In this document: piece by piece, positions 13,355-24,325 of the stretch
How positions within the stretch are numbered: the stretch's first letter is position 1
Layout: every line of letters starts with the position of its first letter
DNA from: a virus
DNA: 33,090 nt
IMG/VR virus record: IMGVR_UViG_3300042389_000631
Location: 1 to 33,090 of that record
Reading direction: 5' to 3' (one strand)
Notes under the pieces: generated by a model
What the model saw: only the letters and a program-made list of their open reading frames with translations
Databases searched by the model: none
Told to the model about the DNA's origin: nothing
Translations under genes and position numbers: made by a program

Positions 13355-14533
13355 TTGCGAGTCCGACTTCCGTCGCTCGCGTCCGTCCTGCATCCCTCGC
13401 AGCGTGAGGTGCACGCCGCGCTCGCGCGGTTCTCCGTGCTCGAGATCGGCCGTCGCTGGGGGAAGACGACCTTCGGCATCCAGCTCGCGATCGACGACGC
13501 GGTGTCAGGCCGAAAGGTCGGTTGGTTCGCGCCTTCGTACAAGTACCTGGCAGATCCCGTGCGCGAGTTCGAGCGCGCCTTGAAGCCTGTCGTGCGCCGC
13601 ATTGACCGCATCGAAAAGCGCATGGAGCTGAAGACGAACGGCAGCATCGACTTCTGGACGCTGGAGGACATCGACTCGGGCCGCGGCCGCTCGTACGATC
13701 GCATCGTCATCGACGAGGCCGGATTCGCGCCGCGTCTGCTAGAGGCATGGCGCGCGTCGATGCGCGCGACGCTCGCAGACCGCAAGGGCCGCGCGCTCTT
13801 CCTCGGCACACCAAAGGGAACGGGCGACTTCCATCGGCTCTATCTCGAGGCCGAGGGAGACACGACGGGCGAGTGGCGCGCGTTCCGCATTGGCTCTGTC
13901 TCGAATCCGCACCTAGACCCGAGCGAGATCGAGGCCGCGCGACGAATGCTCCCGGCCGAGGTCTTCGCGCAGGAGTTCGAGGGCGTGCCAGCCGAGGACG
14001 GCGGCAACCCATTCGGACTCGACGCAATCCGGGAGTGCATCGCGCCGATGCCGGATACGGCGGTCGAATGCTGGGGCGTCGACCTCGCAAAGAGCCAGGA
14101 CTGGACGGTCGCGGTCGGCCTCGACGGCGAGGGCCGCGTCTGTCGGCTCGACCGATGGCAAGGCCCGTGGAGCGTCACGCGCGAGCGTCTCGCGCGCATG
14201 ATCGGAGACAAGCCGGCGCAGATCGACTCGACGGGCGTCGGCGATCCCATCGTCGAGGATCTCCGCAAGGTCTGCCGTCGCGCCGAGGGCTTCAAGTTCA
14301 CCTCGCAGAGCAAGCAGCAGCTGATGGAAGGCCTGCAACTTGCGATCCAAACTCGCGAGATTCGCTTCCCTGACGGTTGGTTGCGGAGCGAACTAGAGGC
14401 CTTCGGCTTCCGATACTCGGGGAGAGCCGTCTCGTACGAGGCGACGGTCGGGCACGACGACGGCGTCTGCGCTCTTGCGCTTGCCGTCCTCGCGCGAAGG
14501 CAGCGGAAGCCCCTCCTCCTGAAAGTCATCTGA
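13355..14533 (+). CDS. terL: Terminase large subunit
   Basis: 392 residues. The ATPase half has GRRWGKTT at 32-39 (Walker A) and IVIDEAGF with D120-E121 (Walker B). The nuclease half has D243 (GVDLAKSQDW), D291 (IDSTGVGD) and D368/D369 (HDDG), the RNase H-like acidic cluster. It pumps DNA into the prohead and cuts it. The start is a TTG directly after the small-subunit stop, with GGAG upstream; no nearby ATG in frame gives a full Walker A region. Its stop overlaps the portal ATG. Confidence 0.92.
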   Translation: MRVRLPSLASVLHPSQREVHAALARFSVLEIGRRWGKTTFGIQLAIDDAVSGRKVGWFAPSYKYLADPVREFERALKPVVRRIDRIEKRMELKTNGSIDFWTLEDIDSGRGRSYDRIVIDEAGFAPRLLEAWRASMRATLADRKGRALFLGTPKGTGDFHRLYLEAEGDTTGEWRAFRIGSVSNPHLDPSEIEAARRMLPAEVFAQEFEGVPAEDGGNPFGLDAIRECIAPMPDTAVECWGVDLAKSQDWTVAVGLDGEGRVCRLDRWQGPWSVTRERLARMIGDKPAQIDSTGVGDPIVEDLRKVCRRAEGFKFTSQSKQQLMEGLQLAIQTREIRFPDGWLRSELEAFGFRYSGRAVSYEATVGHDDGVCALALAVLARRQRKPLLLKVI

Positions 14534-17500
14534 TGATCCTGAGCCGAATCAAGGCAGCACTCAACGCGAACCGCTGGCTCCAGTCCTCGATGCGGATTGT
14601 CTCCGGCGGTGGCGATGCCGTGCGCCAGCCGTTCTCGTATCAGGCCGCGGTGCTCGCGAATCGGTCGTGGATCTACGCGGCCGCGCACCTGAACGCGCAG
14701 GCCGTCGCGAGCCAGCCGCTGCGCCTCTATGTGCGCTCTCGCGGAACGGCCGTGAAGCTCTGGAAGACGGCGCGGCCGTCGCGTTCGACCTTCGCGCGCT
14801 TCGCCGGCGAGCGCGACGACCGTCCGTCGCCTTTCGTCATGCAGAAGGCCGCGGAGTTCGGCGATGACTACGAGGTCGTGACCGAGGCTCATCCCGTCCT
14901 GACGCTGCTCGACCAGCCGAACTCGTACACGAACGGCTACGAGGCGACCATGCTCCGCGTGCTCTTCCAAGAGCTCACAGGCAATGCGTACCTCCATCCA
15001 GTCATCGACGCGCAGACGGGCGTGCCCGTCGAGCTCTGGTCGATGCCGTCGCAGTATGTGGAGATCGTGCCAGGAAAGACGCAGTTCATCGACGCGTACC
15101 TCTACGGCGCGTCGCGCGACCAGCGCCGGATCTTCGCGGCCGACGAGGTGATCCACTTCAAGCGCCCGAATCCCGGAGACCTGTACTACGGCCTCGGCAA
15201 GCTCGAGGCCGCATGGGGCGCGGCGACGATGAACGCGGCCGTGAAGGACATGGATCTGTCCTTCTTCCAGAACAAGGCGCGGCCCGACTACCTGCTGACG
15301 ATCAAGTCGAACGCGTCGCAAGAGGAGATTGAGCGGCTCGAGGTGCAGATCGACGAGAAGCTTCGCGGCAAGGAGCGGACGGGACGCTTCCTGACCGCGA
15401 CGGCCGACATCGACCTCAAGCCCATGAACTTCCCGCCAAAGGATCTCGGCGGACGCGAGGACATCGTCGAGGAGATCGCGGCCGTCTTCGGCGTGCCGGT
15501 CTCGATGCTGAAGGCGAACGACCCGAACCTTGCGAGCGCGACGGTCGGCTTCCAGTCGTGGAAGGCGATCTCCGTGCTCCCTCTGCTTCGCCTGGACGAG
15601 CAGACGCTGAACTCGCAGCTCCTCCCGCTCTTCGGCATCGAGGACGACGCGTTCCTCGCATACGACTCGCCCGTCGTCGAGGACGAGAAGTTCGAGTTCG
15701 AGAAGCGTCGCTCGTCGGTCGCGGCCGGAATCATCACGGCGAACGAGGCGCGCAAGCTCGAAGGCCTCGAGCCTGTCTCCGACGAGATGGCCGATCGCCT
15801 GCTCATTAACGGACAGCCGCTCGGCGGCCCGGCTCCGGCCGCGCCGGCGCTTCCGTTTGGCGCTAGTATCCAGACGGATACGCCTGACCCCGCTCCGCAG
15901 CCCGAGCGCAAGGACGCGCTCGGAGACTGCGTTTCCGAGAAGATCCCGACGCTCATCGCCGAGGGATACGAGCAGGATCAGGCCGTCGCGATCGCGTACT
16001 CGATGTGCAGCGAGGGGAAAACGCTCGAGGACATCCTCGACGAGCGCGGCTCGGAGATGCGATCCAAGGCGCTGTCCGACATCGACACGAAGCCTCCGCA
16101 GACGGTCGCAGACAACGCGCGACGAGCGCTCGAGGTTCGCGCGCGGAAGCCGGAGTCTCAGCGCGGGATGACCGCGGTCGGCATCGCTCGGGCGCGCGAT
16201 CTTGCGAATCGCGTCGAGCTCTCGGAGGACACGATCCGCCGGATGCTTGCGTATTTCGAGCGGCACGAGGTCGACAAGCAGGGCGAGACTTGGGACGACC
16301 AGGGCAAGGGCTGGCAGGCTTGGAACGGCTGGGGCGGCGACGACGGCTTCGCGTGGGCGCGGCGCAAGGTCGAGCAGTTCGACCGCGAGCGCGAGCGCAA
16401 GGCCGCAGGCAAGTCGGCGAAGAACGGCGGAGGAGATCCGCCGGCGAAGCCGTCCGAGCGGATCAGCGGTAGCGATCGCAATCCCGAGGGATCCGCCAGC
16501 GGATCGCGCGGAGGTATCGAGATCAGCGAGGAGACCGAGGAAGCGCTCCGGAACAAGGTCGACGAACACAACGACAAGCACGGCGACGAGAACGGCAAGC
16601 GCGTAGACCTCGGGATGCTAAAGGCCGTTTACCGACGCGGAGCAGGCGCATTCTCGACGAGCCATCGTGCAGGAGTCGGCCGAGAGCAATGGGCTATGGC
16701 GCGCGTGAATGCGTTCCTGACGCTCGTCCGTCGCGGCAAGCCTGAAGACGCGGACTACACGACGGACTTTGACCTGCTGCCGAGTGGTCATCCGAAGAAG
16801 AGCGACGGGAAGAAGTCGTGCGGATGCTGCGGCGACAAGCCTGCGCGCGTCTCGACCAAGCGGCTCTGGTCTGATCTAATCACGAAGGCAAGCGAGCGCG
16901 ACGCCGAGCGCGAGTTTGACAAGATCACCGAGCAGGAGCAGGAGATCGGCAAGGCCGTCTCAAAGGTGCTCGAGAAGCAGGTCGCCGAGGTCATCGCCGC
17001 GATCCGCAAGGAAGGCCGGCCGACGCGCGCGACCGTGCAGAAGGTCGAGAAGATCCTCCGCGAGAGCCGATGGAACGCGGAGCTCGTGAACGCTCTCCGG
17101 CCGTACCTCGCGGACGCGATCGCCGGCGGCGTCGAGCTCGGCCTCGACACGGTCGGCAAGATGGTCACGGGAGCGCCCGACTTCACGCCGGCGCGCGACG
17201 ACCTCCGCGCATACGCGCAGTCCGAGTCCGTGCGCCTAGCTCGCACGGCCGCGGCCGGAGTGAACCGCTATACCTCCGTCCGCGTGGGCGAGATCCTAGG
17301 AGACGGCATCGCGGACGGCGAGACCATCGACCAGCTCGCGAGCCGCGTGCAGGACTGGGCAGGAGAGAAGGGCGACGCCGACCGCGCGACGCGTAACCGC
17401 GCCGTGACGATCGCTCGCACCGAGGCGCAGCGCGCGACGCGCAAGGCCGAGCTCGAGGCGTGGAAGTCGACGGGCATCGTCGAAGGAAAGACCTGGCTTC

Positions 17501-17784
17501 TCGCGCCGGATCCGTGCGAGTTCTGCGAGGCCGCTGCGAAGGCATTTGAGTCGAAGGCCGTCGGCCTTGACGACTCGTTCTACCAGAAGGGTGAGACGCT
17601 CGAAGGCGCAGACGGCGGCGCGCTCGTCCTCGACTACGAGGCGATCGACGCTCCCCCGCTGCACCCGAATTGCCGATGCTCGATGGAGCCGAAGCTTGCC
17701 GGCGAGTACGGCGCGATCCAAGACGAGATCAACGCCGAGGTGGACGAATACTTCGAGCAGCTCAAAAGGGAGCAGCAGGCATGA
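14533..17784 (+). CDS. Portal-MuF fusion protein
   Basis: 1083 residues in one open frame. Residues about 1-430 are an HK97-type portal (QAAVLANRSWIYAAAHLNAQ, DEVIHFKR, GVPVSMLK). Then comes a CVSEKIPTLIAEGYEQDQAVAIAY segment-type block (about 461-490), a block with WGGDDGFAWARRKVEQF (about 521-617), a block with GMLKAVYRRGAGAFSTSHR (about 667-755), and from about 777 an SPP1 gp7/MuF-like head-morphogenesis domain ending with DPCEFCEAA and HPNCRCSMEPKL. Portal and MuF are usually separate genes; the fusion would place the MuF part at the portal vertex. No frameshift or stop interrupts it. Downstream is the prohead protease, which could cleave the fusion. Confidence 0.85.
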   Translation: MILSRIKAALNANRWLQSSMRIVSGGGDAVRQPFSYQAAVLANRSWIYAAAHLNAQAVASQPLRLYVRSRGTAVKLWKTARPSRSTFARFAGERDDRPSPFVMQKAAEFGDDYEVVTEAHPVLTLLDQPNSYTNGYEATMLRVLFQELTGNAYLHPVIDAQTGVPVELWSMPSQYVEIVPGKTQFIDAYLYGASRDQRRIFAADEVIHFKRPNPGDLYYGLGKLEAAWGAATMNAAVKDMDLSFFQNKARPDYLLTIKSNASQEEIERLEVQIDEKLRGKERTGRFLTATADIDLKPMNFPPKDLGGREDIVEEIAAVFGVPVSMLKANDPNLASATVGFQSWKAISVLPLLRLDEQTLNSQLLPLFGIEDDAFLAYDSPVVEDEKFEFEKRRSSVAAGIITANEARKLEGLEPVSDEMADRLLINGQPLGGPAPAAPALPFGASIQTDTPDPAPQPERKDALGDCVSEKIPTLIAEGYEQDQAVAIAYSMCSEGKTLEDILDERGSEMRSKALSDIDTKPPQTVADNARRALEVRARKPESQRGMTAVGIARARDLANRVELSEDTIRRMLAYFERHEVDKQGETWDDQGKGWQAWNGWGGDDGFAWARRKVEQFDRERERKAAGKSAKNGGGDPPAKPSERISGSDRNPEGSASGSRGGIEISEETEEALRNKVDEHNDKHGDENGKRVDLGMLKAVYRRGAGAFSTSHRAGVGREQWAMARVNAFLTLVRRGKPEDADYTTDFDLLPSGHPKKSDGKKSCGCCGDKPARVSTKRLWSDLITKASERDAEREFDKITEQEQEIGKAVSKVLEKQVAEVIAAIRKEGRPTRATVQKVEKILRESRWNAELVNALRPYLADAIAGGVELGLDTVGKMVTGAPDFTPARDDLRAYAQSESVRLARTAAAGVNRYTSVRVGEILGDGIADGETIDQLASRVQDWAGEKGDADRATRNRAVTIARTEAQRATRKAELEAWKSTGIVEGKTWLLAPDPCEFCEAAAKAFESKAVGLDDSFYQKGETLEGADGGALVLDYEAIDAPPLHPNCRCSMEPKLAGEYGAIQDEINAEVDEYFEQLKREQQA

Positions 17785-18532: not shown

Positions 18533-19918
18533 ATGCAGACCATGAATCTCGACAAGTTCCGCGAGGCGCTCACCCTCGCGGCGCGCGTCAAGGGCGAGCC
18601 GGGCGTCGTTGCCCAGAAGAAGCTCATCCTCGACCGCTACATGATCGTGGACGCCGACGGCGTCGCGGTCGATCCCGAAACCCTCGATGTCACCATCGCT
18701 CCGGCCGCGCTCGCGGTCGAAGAGGACGCCGCCAAGCCGGCGGAGGAAGACCCCATGACCAACGAAGAGATCACCAAGAGCGTCCGCGCGGTCGTCGCTG
18801 CGGAGCTGAAGGCGTCGCCGCGCGCGAACGCCGTCGTCGCCGAGCCGAAGGCGTGGGAAAACGCCAAGGTCTACGGCAAGCTGAAGAACCTCACGAACAA
18901 GGAGCAGGCCTTCCGCTTCGGCACCTGGTGCCTTGGCGCGATGGGTCACAAGAAGTCGGCTGACTGGTGCGCGGCCAACGGCCTCGCGCTCCGCACGAAG
19001 GGCCACACCGAGGGCGTCAACAGCGCCGGCGGCTTCCTTGTGCCGGACGAGTTCGAGAACGAGCTCATCACCCTTCGCGAGCAGTACGGCGTCTTCCGCC
19101 GCAACGCGCGCATCTGGCCGATGTCGAGCGACACGCTCCGCATCCCGAAGCGCTCGTCGACCCTGACCGCGTACTTCGTCGGCGAGGCCGCTGCCGGCAC
19201 CGAGTCGCAGCAGGTCTTCGACAGCGTGCAGCTGGTCGCGAAGAAGCTGATGGCTCTCACCACGGTCTCGAGCGAGCTGCTCGAGGACGCGGTCGTGAAC
19301 ATCGGCGACGACATCGCCGGCGAGATCGCGTACGCGTTCGCGCTCAAGGAGGACGGCTGCGGCTTCCTCGGCGACGGCACCTCGACCTACGGTGGCATCG
19401 TCGGCCTTGAGAACGCGCTCACGAACGCGACCTACCAGATCAGCGACGGAGCTGCGACCGCTCCGAGCGGCGTCCTTCTCGCCGAGATCAACGCCGCCTT
19501 CGGCAAGCTCCCGGCGTGGGCTTACCAGCGCAACGGTGTGAAGATTTACTGCCACAAGTCGGTCTACCACACTGTCTTCGAGAAGCTCGCAATGGCGGCT
19601 GGCGGCGTGACCGCTGCCGAGATCGCGGCCGGAATGCAGCCGCGCTTCTTCGGCTACCCGGTCGAGTTCGCTCAGGTGATGAATACCTCGGCCAGCCTCG
19701 CCACCGCCGGTTCAGGCACTTTCGCGTTCATCGGCGACCTCTCGCAGGGTTGCTACCTCGGCGACCGTCGCTCGACCGCGGTCGCGTTCTCCGACTCGGC
19801 GCTCAACGCGTTCGAGCAGGACGAGCGCGTCGTCCGCGGAACCGAGCGGTTCGACATCGTCTGCGCCAATGTCGGCTCGTCCACCGAGTCGGGCGCGGTC
19901 ATCAAGCTCACCCTCTGA
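18533..19918 (+). CDS. Major capsid protein (HK97 fold)
   Basis: 461 residues after GGAGG. The first ~100 residues are helical, acidic and low in complexity, as expected for the delta/scaffold domain removed by the protease. The remainder follows the HK97 family plan: TEGVNSAGGFLVPDEFENEL at about 160-180, a GVFRRNARIWPMSSDTLRIP segment, then FLGDGTSTYGGIVGL, and a C-terminal GCYLGDRRSTAVAFSD. No separate scaffold gene is seen, consistent with a fused delta domain. Confidence 0.93.
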   Translation: MQTMNLDKFREALTLAARVKGEPGVVAQKKLILDRYMIVDADGVAVDPETLDVTIAPAALAVEEDAAKPAEEDPMTNEEITKSVRAVVAAELKASPRANAVVAEPKAWENAKVYGKLKNLTNKEQAFRFGTWCLGAMGHKKSADWCAANGLALRTKGHTEGVNSAGGFLVPDEFENELITLREQYGVFRRNARIWPMSSDTLRIPKRSSTLTAYFVGEAAAGTESQQVFDSVQLVAKKLMALTTVSSELLEDAVVNIGDDIAGEIAYAFALKEDGCGFLGDGTSTYGGIVGLENALTNATYQISDGAATAPSGVLLAEINAAFGKLPAWAYQRNGVKIYCHKSVYHTVFEKLAMAAGGVTAAEIAAGMQPRFFGYPVEFAQVMNTSASLATAGSGTFAFIGDLSQGCYLGDRRSTAVAFSDSALNAFEQDERVVRGTERFDIVCANVGSSTESGAVIKLTL

Positions 19919-19936: not shown

Positions 19937-20380
19937 ATGGTTCCCAGCAACAGCAAGACGGTCGTCCTCGCGGTCAACGCCGGCACGGCTACCGTCTCGA
20001 CTCTCACGGCGACGGTCGACACGAAGGGCTTCTCCTTCGCGAAGATCCTCTGCCTCTCCTCCTCGACGGGCACGGTCTCGACCGGCACGAACAACAAGAT
20101 CGAAGACGCGGACGCCTCGACCGGCACCTTCGCGACCTTCGCTGGTTTCGTGCAGGGCACCGACTGGACCGGCTCGACCTCGACCAACAGCACGCAGAAC
20201 GCGAAGGTCCTCTGGAACATCCCGCTCCAGGGCCGCAAGCGCTACCTGAAGGTCACCTTCACGCACGCGACCGGCGGCGGCGGCACGATCGTCGCCGAGC
20301 TCGAGCGTCCCTCGAACGGCATCTCGGCTTCGACCGAGGCGTTCGAGTCGACCGATGTCGGAAACATCATCGGCCTCTGA
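19937..20380 (+). CDS. Capsid decoration-type beta-sandwich protein
   Basis: 147 residues, Thr/Ser/Gly-rich, directly after the capsid gene, with GGAAGGA upstream. VVLAVNAGTATVSTLTATVD, KIEDADAS, GRKRYLKVTFTH and VAELERPSN are hallmarks of a small all-beta domain found after capsid genes in many phages. Both halves of this domain reappear at the two ends of the next protein. It probably binds the capsid lattice. I infer a decoration role from position and fold, not from a known homologue. Confidence 0.65.
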   Translation: MVPSNSKTVVLAVNAGTATVSTLTATVDTKGFSFAKILCLSSSTGTVSTGTNNKIEDADASTGTFATFAGFVQGTDWTGSTSTNSTQNAKVLWNIPLQGRKRYLKVTFTHATGGGGTIVAELERPSNGISASTEAFESTDVGNIIGL

Positions 20381-20399
20381 TCCCTCTCTCTCACGGGCT

Positions 20400-20417
20400 G
20401 CGCGCCGAAAGGCGCGC
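20400..20417 (+). terminator. Hairpin between decoration and esterase genes
   Basis: A 7-bp G/C stem (20400-20406 with 20411-20417) capped by a GAAA tetraloop is followed by GGCCTGTTT. The T-run is short, so it may be a partial terminator that keeps capsid and decoration mRNA more abundant than downstream genes. It ends only 11 bases before the esterase ATG, which has no clear ribosome site, so it may also limit translation. Confidence 0.5.
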
Positions 20418-20428
20418 GGCCTGTTTCC

Positions 20429-22186
20429 ATGAAGTCATCCAACGATCTGCGCCCTACGGGCATCGTCGTCGCGGAAAGCCTCACCTCGAGTCAGACCGCG
20501 TCGTTCCAGTTCGACACGCTCGGCTTCAATGCCGCGTCTGTCGTCGTTTCCTCGCGCAGCGTCTCGGAGTCGGTCTTCGGATCCGAGGTCGTCGGATCGT
20601 GGATCTCCGACGCGATCAACGGAACGGACTCCATCGACTTCCTGTTCATCGGAGACAGCAATGTCTTCTATCAGGTGAGCGGATCGAGATGCTACGGCTA
20701 CTTTGCAGGCTTCCACTACGCGATGCTCCAGCAGGGAGCGACGATGTACGGGACTGCGGTGACTCCGCTCTATCGCGGCGACAGCTCAAACGCGACGGTC
20801 GGATACCTTGGCAACGGAGCGAATGTCGTCGAGGACGACGCGAACTTCATCAACGCGACCGTCAAGCGCGGATCGACGCGCGGCCCCGAGGAGCTCTCCA
20901 AGTACATCTCTGGCGGCCCGTTCTCGTGGAATCCAGAGAGCACCGGAAGCGCCGACTTCCTGAGCATCCGAAACACGACCACCTACGGCGGCTCGACGCA
21001 GGCCTACCAGGGCGCGACCGGAATCTATCTTGACTCCGCGCAGACTGCCTTCAACACGCAGAGCGCGACTCGCTATCGCCTTGTCCGCGGCAAGGTGCCT
21101 GCGAGCCGCATCGGCTCGTATCAGGGATATGTGTACAAGGCCGGCGGAAATGTCGCCGGTTCTCGCGTCGTGACGACTTCGGCAGGTACGGAGACACTGA
21201 TCCGGGAAGGATCGTACGAGTGGGTCGCAGACGAGATGAACATCGCGGCCGCGACCTCGACTGCGGCCTACAGCGTCCACTACGCGCAGCAGTCTGTCGG
21301 CGACAATCTCGGCGTGCAGGGCGAGGTGAATCTCGCCTATCAGTCGGTGTACCGTCCGTCGACCAAGGGCTTCGCGGTCTCCGCGATGCACGCGCGAGGC
21401 GGAGCGAAGATGTCGGACATGGTCAACTCGCTGCTCGGCGCAACGGACGACGGGATCAAGCTGATCCTTGCCGAGATCCGGAAGCGTCAGGTTCGCGCCG
21501 GCGGCACGGGTCGCGTCTGCATGGTCGTCGAGGGAGGCTCCAACGCAGACACCGGAGTCCCGCAGTCGTGGGCGACGAACCTCGAGAAGCTGCTCGACAA
21601 GGTCTCGCGCGCATGGAGCCAGCTCGGTTTTCCGTCCGCTGATCTTGCGTTCCTTGCGTTCGTCTCGCAGCAGCGCGACTCGAACGACACGACCAATGTG
21701 AACCTCCGTCCGCTTGCGCGCAGCTGGGCGCTCGGCGATGGGCGCAGGGATAACCTGACCGTCGTCGAGACGAAGTCAATGTTCTTCTACAACGACCTTG
21801 CGGCATATGCGACCGGAGGCGATACGCTGCATCTGACCGCAGACGGCTACAACTTTGTCTCAGAAGCGATCATTTCTGCTCTCGTCGGTTCGGAGACTTC
21901 AACCGCGGCATTCTCGACCTTCCGGGCCTACGAGTCAGACGACCGGGCCAACTGGTCGGAGATGACAAACTTCTCGTCGATGACCGCCGGCGCGCAGTCG
22001 TTCGGAAATCAGCGGTATCCTCGCGCCGTGCTTTCGACCGACCGAGTCGGCCGTAAGCGCTTCCTTCGCGTCGATGTCACGCCGGGAGGAACAGCAGACA
22101 TCGCGGCCTTCGCGGTGATGAGCCAGCCAAGCAACCAGGTCACGACAGCGGCCGATGTGAAGGCTACGCTGCTCGTGCAGGGATAA
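20429..22186 (+). CDS. SGNH/GDSL esterase nested inside a decoration domain
   Basis: 585 residues. The ends (about 10-50 and 495-577) match the two halves of the preceding 147-residue protein: VVAESLTSSQTASFQFDTLG and, at the C terminus, YESDDRANW, GRKRFLRVDVTP and VMSQPSN. Between them lies an SGNH hydrolase: GDSN at 75-78 (nucleophile S77), GGSN with N372, and D465-x2-H468 (DTLH), the expected catalytic Asp/His pair. Such enzymes remove acetyl or acyl groups from glycans or lipids. The layout suggests an enzyme displayed on the head surface via a capsid-binding domain. A tail role cannot be excluded, but head-gene context favours the capsid. The substrate is unknown. Confidence 0.8.
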   Translation: MKSSNDLRPTGIVVAESLTSSQTASFQFDTLGFNAASVVVSSRSVSESVFGSEVVGSWISDAINGTDSIDFLFIGDSNVFYQVSGSRCYGYFAGFHYAMLQQGATMYGTAVTPLYRGDSSNATVGYLGNGANVVEDDANFINATVKRGSTRGPEELSKYISGGPFSWNPESTGSADFLSIRNTTTYGGSTQAYQGATGIYLDSAQTAFNTQSATRYRLVRGKVPASRIGSYQGYVYKAGGNVAGSRVVTTSAGTETLIREGSYEWVADEMNIAAATSTAAYSVHYAQQSVGDNLGVQGEVNLAYQSVYRPSTKGFAVSAMHARGGAKMSDMVNSLLGATDDGIKLILAEIRKRQVRAGGTGRVCMVVEGGSNADTGVPQSWATNLEKLLDKVSRAWSQLGFPSADLAFLAFVSQQRDSNDTTNVNLRPLARSWALGDGRRDNLTVVETKSMFFYNDLAAYATGGDTLHLTADGYNFVSEAIISALVGSETSTAAFSTFRAYESDDRANWSEMTNFSSMTAGAQSFGNQRYPRAVLSTDRVGRKRFLRVDVTPGGTADIAAFAVMSQPSNQVTTAADVKATLLVQG

Positions 22187-22198
22187 AGGAGAGAGAAC

Positions 22199-23302
22199 AT
22201 GAGAGAGAGAATCCTGACCGCGCTCGACGCGCGGCTCGATGGGGTCGAGGTCGGGAGCCTCGACCGGATCGTTGCGGACATCGTGCTCGACCAGTTCCCG
22301 TCCGAGGAGAGCGTCACGCTGCTCCGGCGCTGGAACGACGCGCTTTCCGGCGGCGGCACGCTCGAGCTCGCGGTGACCGACTTCGACAAGGTCTGCGACG
22401 ACTACAAGGCCGGCACCGCAGATCCCGAGCGCACGCTCACGCGCGGAGGACTTGCGAAGTCGATCTACAACCGCGACAAGGTCTTGAACCTGCTGAACAT
22501 CAGCGGCTTCGAGATCGACGGCGGCTCCGCCGGACTCGACTGGAAGCGCGACCCGCACACAATCGCCGTCCGTGCGACGAAGCGGCTCCGCAAGATGCCG
22601 AGCATCCCGATGAAGGACATCCATGCGATGATGTCGCTTCCGCGCGTCTCGTGGACGGAGACGATGGGGAATGTCTATCAGGCCGTGGCCGGCCTTGAGA
22701 TCCCGTTCACGAAGTCTACGGGCGTCTTCTGGTCGCAGTCGCTCCAGCGGATGATGCAAGGCATCCTCGAGAAGCCGGAGTGCCCGAAGTACATCCTGAC
22801 GATCGACTTCGACTCCATCTTCGACCAGCGCGACATCGTCCGGCTCTGGCAGATCATGGAGGACAACCCGGACATCTTCGCGCTCTGTCCGCTTCAGATC
22901 GGGCGCGACCGCGACGCGGTTCTGATGACCGTCCTCGACGAGAACCGCAAGCCGATGCGCGAGGCTCCGGTCGAGTGGTTCCGGCGCGAGGCGCTCGACA
23001 TCGGGCACGGCCACTTCGGCCTGACGCTCATCAGGACGGAGATGCTCCGCAAGATGTCTCTCCCGTGGTTCGTCGGCCAGCCGAACGCCAACGGCGAGTG
23101 GGGCGAGGGTCGGATCGACGACGACATCTATTTCTGGAAGAAGGCTGCGGCGCAAGGCCTGCGGATCTGCGCCTCTCCGAAGGTGCGAATCGGTCACCTC
23201 CAGCTCGTCATCTCGTGGCCGGATGATGCGCTTCGCACGGTTCACCAGTATGTCGGGAAGTTCTACGACGAGGGGAGGCCGCAAGAGTGCATGACCTACT
23301 GA
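22199..23302 (+). CDS. GT-A glycosyltransferase with degenerate methyltransferase-like N domain
   Basis: 367 residues after AAAGGAGAG. Residues about 1-125 resemble the C-terminal half of a class I methyltransferase (LDQFPSEESVTLLRRWNDAL, GGTLELAVTDFDKV) but lack the SAM-binding glycine motif, so it is probably not catalytic. From about 135 the protein looks like a GT-A glycosyltransferase: ILTIDFDS with a DxD at 203-205, and WGEGRIDDDIYFWKKAAAQG near 305. It sits in the head cluster after the esterase-decoration gene, suggesting glycosylation of capsid or decoration protein, or of host glycans. Inference only. Confidence 0.7.
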   Translation: MRERILTALDARLDGVEVGSLDRIVADIVLDQFPSEESVTLLRRWNDALSGGGTLELAVTDFDKVCDDYKAGTADPERTLTRGGLAKSIYNRDKVLNLLNISGFEIDGGSAGLDWKRDPHTIAVRATKRLRKMPSIPMKDIHAMMSLPRVSWTETMGNVYQAVAGLEIPFTKSTGVFWSQSLQRMMQGILEKPECPKYILTIDFDSIFDQRDIVRLWQIMEDNPDIFALCPLQIGRDRDAVLMTVLDENRKPMREAPVEWFRREALDIGHGHFGLTLIRTEMLRKMSLPWFVGQPNANGEWGEGRIDDDIYFWKKAAAQGLRICASPKVRIGHLQLVISWPDDALRTVHQYVGKFYDEGRPQECMTY

Positions 23303-23520
23303 TCGTGCTCCGCAACTGCTCGGTCTACCAGCCTGGCGTCGGCCGGCGCGATCTGCGGCCCGGAACGGTCGTCAACCTAGACCCGGTACTTGCCGATCGC
23401 ATGGTCGCGAAGGGGTACATGGAGCGCGTTGTTTCGGCCGCTCCTCTGTTCGCGCAAGCGACGGACGCGCCCCAGAAGCCGATGAGGAAGCGCAAGGAGC
23501 CGCGCACCGATGGCAGTTGA
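23287..23520 (+). CDS. Small head-region hypothetical protein
   Basis: 77 residues from GTG with GGGGAGG upstream, overlapping the genes on both sides. VLRNCSVYQPGVGRRDLRPGTVV looks like a small beta-domain; the C terminus is Lys/Arg-rich (MRKRKEPR). Small proteins of this kind often precede the connector gene in HK97-like operons. No family name is certain. Confidence 0.65.
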   Translation: MHDLLIVLRNCSVYQPGVGRRDLRPGTVVNLDPVLADRMVAKGYMERVVSAAPLFAQATDAPQKPMRKRKEPRTDGS

Positions 23521-24325
23521 CACCTACGCGCTGACCAGCCTCGCGAACCTGAAGAGCTATCTCGGGATAAGCTCGTCGACCGACGACACGATCCTCGAGA
23601 AGTCGATCGACCGCGCGTCGGATGTTGTCGAGAGCTACCTTGGTCGCAAGGTTCTGAGCCGCGCGTTTGTCGAGTGGCGCGATACCTTCGGCAAGGATCG
23701 GATCGCGCTGCGTCAGTATCCGGTCACGGGCGTGCGGTTCGTCGGCGTCGGCTACAACGCGGCGATCACGGTCGGCGCGAGCTCTCCGCTCGATCCGGCG
23801 GTCTCGATCACGGTCGGCGACTCGTCGGTCATCCTCTACCGCCAGGTCTCCGCAGGCACCGACACGACGACGACGCTGACCTTCGCGACCTATCCGACGA
23901 CGGCGCTCATGGCCGCGGCGATCGCCGCGACCGCAGGCTTCACGGCCTCGGTCGTGCTCGACCTGCCAAGCCGCTACATGAGGCGATTCGCCGGACGCAC
24001 GCTCCGCAACGCGACCGTGAACCTCGAGGCTCCGGATCAGGCGGTCGAGGACTACCTTGCGGACTTCGACCGCGGAGTCGTCTATGGGCGTCAGCTGACG
24101 GGATACCGCGCGGTGCTCATCGACTACACGGCCGGCTACGCGACCGTCCCTGACGACATCGAGCAGGCCTGCCTGATGGTTGCTGCTTCGATCTACCAGG
24201 GCCGCAAGCGCGATCCCAACCTGAACAGCGAGTCGCTCGGCGGCTACTCGTACAGCCTGCGCGCTCCCGGTCAGGCGACGGAGGAGGCTCGCACGATGCT
24301 CGAGGGATACAAGGCGATCCGATGA
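23510..24325 (+). CDS. Head-tail connector (HK97 gp6-like adaptor)
   Basis: 271 residues with AAGGAG upstream. The N-terminal SLANLKSYLGISSSTDDTILEKSIDRASDVVESYLGR is the signature of the gp6/gp15-type adaptor that docks below the portal. A central beta insertion (about 95-160) makes it longer than the usual ~100-200 residue adaptors. The C terminus (DDIEQACLMVAASIYQGRKRD) matches the expected final helix. It is followed in canonical order by the stopper, the tail completion protein and the terminator. Confidence 0.85.
   Translation: MAVDTYALTSLANLKSYLGISSSTDDTILEKSIDRASDVVESYLGRKVLSRAFVEWRDTFGKDRIALRQYPVTGVRFVGVGYNAAITVGASSPLDPAVSITVGDSSVILYRQVSAGTDTTTTLTFATYPTTALMAAAIAATAGFTASVVLDLPSRYMRRFAGRTLRNATVNLEAPDQAVEDYLADFDRGVVYGRQLTGYRAVLIDYTAGYATVPDDIEQACLMVAASIYQGRKRDPNLNSESLGGYSYSLRAPGQATEEARTMLEGYKAIR

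Follow-up and report, generated by a model that had tools for sequence, protein, structure and literature searches.

Why should an esterase be encoded among the head genes of a phage, between two pieces of a small β domain? The head decorations known so far serve to stabilise the capsid or attach to carbohydrates, and the enzymes of phage particles have been described mainly on tails. The question is raised by a viral sequence of 33,090 bases, the whole of IMG/VR record IMGVR_UViG_3300042389_000631, which is here called the window. The gene for its HK97-type major capsid protein (18533–19918, + strand; Pfam PF05065, E=5.6e-42; phrog_10, major head protein) is followed on the same strand by the genes for two proteins, P0001 (19937–20380, 147 aa) and P0002 (20429–22186, 585 aa). 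An earlier note had given these coordinates and lengths, which are correct, and had proposed that P0002 is a duplicate of P0001 with an SGNH esterase inserted in a loop. On the basis of the analysis presented here we favour, with a probability of about 0.6, the reading that P0001 is a decoration protein, and that P0002 is a nested copy of it, anchored on the head, which acts outwards as a glycan esterase and is kept scarce.

Position of the domain among the head genes

The order of genes on the + strand is a portal/Mu-F-like fusion, a prohead protease, the major capsid protein, P0001, P0002, a methyltransferase-like and glycosyltransferase-like gene (22199–23302; phrog_1574, E=1.7e-6) and a head-tail adaptor (23510–24325). 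The first of these is a single ORF of 1,135 aa (14377–17784), which combines a portal protein, a DUF5824 segment and a Mu-F-like domain. A search with the capsid protein gave 80 viral loci, and in nearly all of the MCP-matched loci examined a decoration-type domain follows the capsid gene and precedes the head-tail connector. Uninterrupted copies of the domain number one in 57 loci, two in 12 and three in 6, counts which leave out nested and fused copies and from which short contigs may hide some.

The fusion gene at 22199–23302, with its glycosyltransferase-2-like part, comes after the decoration slot in nearly every relative, with or without an esterase; its relatives match PF13489 above the cut-off and PF00535 weakly. 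The product could glycosylate a capsid or decoration protein, and is a possible partner.

P0001 is predicted to form a complete domain of eight strands (pLDDT 81). It matches phrog_5707 (E=1.4e-9), as does the C-terminal half of P0002 (E=2.6e-5); this is a PHROGs family of unknown function, whose profile does not contain the nested enzyme. When the predicted structure was searched against the PDB, the best matches, all of them weak, included YomS, which is a prophage protein, and two cement proteins, those of BPP-1 (Bbp16, 3j4u) and of cyanophage Pam1 (7eel), the latter two at ranks 2 and 7 with E values of 6e-3 and 3e-2 and TM-scores below 0.5. These jellyroll cement proteins are close to P0001 in length (140 aa), and like it have eight strands and an HK97-fold capsid neighbour (PMC3863775), but no sequence similarity was found, and they have no enzyme attached. 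Gene order and the weak similarity of the predicted fold to cement proteins make it plausible that P0001 is a capsid decoration protein, the first copy at this locus.

The fold search also found a weak resemblance of P0001 to lectin- and CBM-like β-sandwiches. This would suit a different reading, in which the flanking domain of P0002 is a generic β-sandwich for glycan binding or assembly, and the protein belongs to the adsorption apparatus of the tail or neck, or is a free enzyme. Stand-alone SGNH relatives of the insert adjoin tail-fibre or tail-spike genes in some loci, and head-assembly or terminase genes in others. In phage Peru-2, the closest report to the present case, a GDSL esterase is abundant in virions but was not seen on the capsid by cryo-EM, and was proposed to lie in the internal core (PMC13320782). 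Set against this are the place of the domain gene, which comes directly after the capsid gene and before the connector, the absence of a tail gene adjoining P0002, and the occurrence of one to three tandem copies, which suits decoration proteins. A tail, neck or free enzyme is therefore unlikely, though worth keeping in mind.

Compared with what has been described, a head-anchored P0002 would be unusual. T4 Hoc, T5 pb10 and phi29 gp8.5 are head decorations that have little role in stability and contact surface carbohydrates (PMC7602432). These proteins bind; there is no enzyme among the decorations in that review, from which the words ‘hydrolase’ and ‘catalytic’ are absent. Virion esterases tied to LPS O-antigen are found in the tailspikes of Moo19, B2 and G7C (PMC11654681), which, unlike P0002, are on the tail and have no decoration-domain base. 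No enzyme-bearing capsid decoration was found described in the literature searched, the coverage of which was incomplete, so that this absence is not proof of novelty.

A tblastn search of 50,697 phage records gave no match for P0001, P0002, four divergent copies of the domain, the glycosyltransferase-like gene or three stand-alone SGNHs. The capsid protein has distant matches only in these records, and in four of the distantly matched phages none of the genes tested downstream of the capsid gene encodes the domain. Among bacterial-genome contigs, a reasonably similar capsid gene accompanied by the domain was seen only in two Planctomycetes bins (L034 and L035), where a related capsid gene (37–38% identity) is followed by the same domain. 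They give a weak hint as to the host; the contigs are short and could be misbinned.

The SGNH-like insert and its predicted active site

The insert between the flanks of P0002 is about 440 residues long. From conservation and the structural model, it is predicted to comprise a first SGNH part at about residues 49–112 (20573–20764), with a GDSN motif containing the catalytic Ser77 (20657–20659), and a second SGNH part at residues 313–490 (21365–21898), with Gly325, Asn372 (21542–21544) and His468 (21830–21832). Between them the model and fold search place an inner, CBM-like β domain at about residues 178–308 (20960–21352).

The catalytic blocks that had been pointed out previously, namely GDSN, GGSN ending at N372, and D465-x2-H468, are all present in P0002, and most of them are well conserved. 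GDSN at residues 75–78, with Ser77, is invariant in 51 distinct (non-redundant) relatives, as are G370 and N372 (51/51); G325 is found in 50 of the 51, and His468 in 37 of 39 aligned rows. The part of the earlier assignment that is not supported is the catalytic role of Asp465: this residue, three before His468, is mostly replaced in relatives. That the insert is an SGNH is nevertheless probable from the conservation of Ser, Gly, Asn and His across 42–51 members, from a tentative fold match, and from Pfam hits in a few relatives. P0002 itself has no Pfam match, but the GDSL model PF13472 is matched by 4 of 42 relatives (best E=1.2e-4). Foldseek searches with P0002 returned the CE2 esterases 2wao, 4dev and 4xvh together with GDSL lipases, at E values of 8e-5 and weaker and TMt up to 0.54, for a query model with pLDDT 60. 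No relatives of the insert were found in bacterial genome contigs, and no solved structure that could be used through sequence profiles was found in the PDB. There is a broad stand-alone family of phage SGNH proteins (L116–L186), mostly about 450–560 aa long and barely recognised by Pfam.

The lack of conservation of Asp465, and the predicted CBM-like inner domain, could be taken to mean that the SGNH insert has little or no catalytic activity, and that its main role on the head is adhesion to carbohydrates. Indeed the CE2 esterase CtCE2 also binds cellooligosaccharides via its active centre (PMC2661963). However, CE2 enzymes that lack the Asp are active, with a Ser-His dyad backed by a main-chain carbonyl (PMC2661963), and direct contact with an Asp is also missing in CE20 enzymes (PMC12313940). 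Because of these precedents, and because Asp465 is not conserved, a catalytic Asp is neither required nor supported. Ser77, Asn372 and His468 are essentially invariant, and we consider a mainly adhesive insert to be quite improbable.

The CE2 esterases, such as CtCE2 (2wao) and Est2A (4dev), resemble P0002, as modelled, in combining SGNH with a β jelly roll and, in some cases, in having a Ser-His dyad without Asp. They differ in that they are not virion proteins, P0002 has no sequence match in the PDB, and their layout is an N-terminal jelly roll followed by a C-terminal SGNH, whereas the β domain of P0002 is predicted to lie inside the SGNH. For this inner domain the model shows at least eight strands, predicted with modest confidence, and the fold search of the whole of P0002 gave matches of the CBM6/CBM27 type. 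Its position between SGNH blocks I and II would probably make P0002 a threefold nest of domains, each enclosing the next.

The split domain and its relatives

The proposal that the two ends of P0002 represent the domain of P0001 cited shared motifs. These are found in the pair (GRKRYLKV and GRKRFLRV, ERPSN and SQPSN), and a pairwise BLASTP comparison of the two proteins is marginal (E=0.003). Against a first profile of uninterrupted domains the joined flanks of P0002 score 44.9 bits, whereas none of 2,000 shuffles exceeds 9.3. A broader profile was also built only from uninterrupted copies of the domain. The N-terminal half of P0002 (residues 1–46, 20429–20566) matches positions 9–41 of this broader profile with 19.5 bits, and the C-terminal half (residues 494–585, 21908–22183) matches positions 50–139 with 43.9 bits; when joined they score 69.3 bits, and neither half scores above 7.0 when shuffled. 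In L126, a nested relative at a greater distance, the split is cleaner, into positions 1–36 and 40–138, and across the window, L040, L043 and L126 the N-terminal flank maps to 1/9–36/41 and the C-terminal flank to 40/50–139. All ORFs of at least 200 aa in the loci and the window (1,869 distinct ORFs) were scanned, and two ordered pieces of the domain more than 150 residues apart occur in the P0002 family only. In sequence the flanks are thus complementary halves of the P0001 domain, as the earlier note had it.

The predicted structures agree with this in strand order. The model of P0002 is moderate (mean pLDDT 60), with its SGNH core best predicted and its flanks at about 40–77. It has three strands ahead of the insert and the remaining recognised strands behind it, which would place the insertion in the loop between strands 3 and 4.

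A comparison with CE20 enzymes is useful here. Like P0002 as modelled, they have an SGNH interrupted by an ancillary β-sandwich, with further β-sandwiches on either side and an atypical triad (PMC12313940), and it could be supposed that P0002 is a linear multidomain esterase of this type, whose flanks are not halves of one domain. In CE20 enzymes, which are bacterial and degrade polysaccharides, the flanks are separate domains. In P0002 the N-terminal flank has only three strands and the two flanks map to complementary positions of one profile, while in relatives this locus has the domain in one piece. A linear arrangement is for these reasons very unlikely.

Duplication followed by loop insertion is well supported by the break between strands 3 and 4 and by the group L018–L025, which has two plain tandem copies exactly where the window has one plain and one nested copy (L025 is a contig fragment, in which the second copy alone is visible). 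The nested architecture, which the earlier note had suggested looking for in other phages, is present in eight contigs besides the window, from several metagenomes, and has no match in the phage records. Three of these contigs encode proteins 96–99% identical to that of the window and three are at about 42–43%; the others are L126, which begins at a contig edge, and L047, which shows the N-terminal part only, at a contig end. Identity of the insert among nested contigs falls to about 40% or less. Comparison of relatives gives a dN/dS of about 0.1 for the insert and a low value for the flanks. The nesting seen in the sequence is thus genuine, and it is conserved and maintained by selection. A chimera of the assembly, or a gene in decay, might be suspected, the sequences coming from metagenomic contigs only and having no match in phage records, but is refuted by the eight independent nested contigs and the dN/dS of about 0.1.

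Between the window and L040, the protease, capsid, glycosyltransferase-like and connector proteins are about 95–96% identical and P0001 is 90% identical, compared with only 43% for P0002. It would therefore appear that the whole nested gene has been replaced between near relatives. Crossovers inside the flanks, as suggested by BLASTN break points against L040, were considered and rejected, since codon windows show that the whole gene has diverged.

A second arrangement is seen in L068–L070, where a complete domain is followed by a related SGNH in an end-to-end fusion. In the tree of the domain the nested copies cluster together (90/96), and the fused copies cluster with copy 1 of their own lineage, which indicates a separate duplication and capture; an AU test holding nested and fused copies together gave p=0.109, so this grouping is not formally rejected. 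Probably, to judge from these sequences, the enzyme and the decoration domain were joined at least twice. In the tree of the enzyme, three sets (window/L040/L043; L126; L068/L070) adjoin different stand-alone SGNHs. The test of whether the enzyme of every nested protein had a single origin is borderline (AU p=0.047), and the nested chassis may accordingly have made one enzyme capture or two. In three further loci (L120:1473–3278, L131:78–1955 and L179:4650–6479) SGNH relatives are fused behind a domain that matches phrog_673 (‘head scaffolding protein’); this may be a further, third route by which the same enzyme is mounted on a head protein.

Expression and proposed role of P0002

Between P0001 and P0002 there is an RNA hairpin of 14 bp with a GAAA loop (20393–20424, + strand; MFE -31 kcal/mol, z -5.3), which ends 4 nt ahead of the P0002 start codon. 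When nested and fused loci were aligned (six distinct rows), 11 of the 14 pairs of this hairpin were seen to vary in both partners, a value reached in 0 of 500 shuffles. Similar hairpins, some of them with T-runs, are found downstream of the decoration genes in most relatives, and the window hairpin therefore probably began as a terminator; it now has a short T-run only, and is absent from the list produced by a terminator scan. Strong hairpins lie 12–25 nt 3' of decoration genes across divergent loci (for example L048:3482 onward), some with a clear T-run, and the capsid and decoration genes may be transcribed together as a unit of their own.

The Shine-Dalgarno interaction is poor at all six distinct esterase starts examined (median -2.6 kcal/mol), compared with medians of -6.4 for copy 1 genes and -9.0 for plain later copies, the latter with two clear exceptions, and with -9.5 for the capsid gene of the window. 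It is the weak start, and not the hairpin, that distinguishes esterase genes from plain copies. The covarying hairpin and these poor starts suggest that the esterase is sub-stoichiometric, and the hairpin is probably an expression throttle.

On this basis we propose the following for P0002 as a head-anchored enzyme. A second copy of the decoration gene would have arisen by duplication, and the loop between its strands 3 and 4 would have received a whole SGNH esterase together with its inner β domain. The two halves would come together again as a decoration domain, by which P0002 is held on the head with the enzyme projecting outwards. There it could remove ester groups, probably acetyl, from the glycans that the phage meets, such as host surface polysaccharide, capsule or exopolysaccharide. 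The trimming of host or mucus glycans, as raised in the earlier note, is conjecture. The hairpin and the weak ribosome-binding site would keep P0002 scarcer than the capsid protein and P0001. We infer, besides outward display, activity, substrate and low copy number, a location on the head, this last because of gene order and domain identity.

A wider and more tentative view, to which we give slightly less than an even chance, is that a group of uncultured phages uses its decoration domain as a platform for mounting and exchanging esterases. These would have been gained through loop insertion in one lineage and through end-to-end fusion in another, and swapped between near-identical phages, and their expression would be throttled by the hairpin and the weak ribosome-binding site, leaving part of the decoration sites without an enzyme.

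If the proposed role of P0002 is correct, the head of the phage, and not the tail alone, would be an enzymatic surface. Heads could then modify glycans, and so affect how the phage moves in biofilm or capsule ahead of any engagement by the tail. The nested gene would also be a naturally occurring design for presenting a complete enzyme on a loop of a domain that binds capsids.
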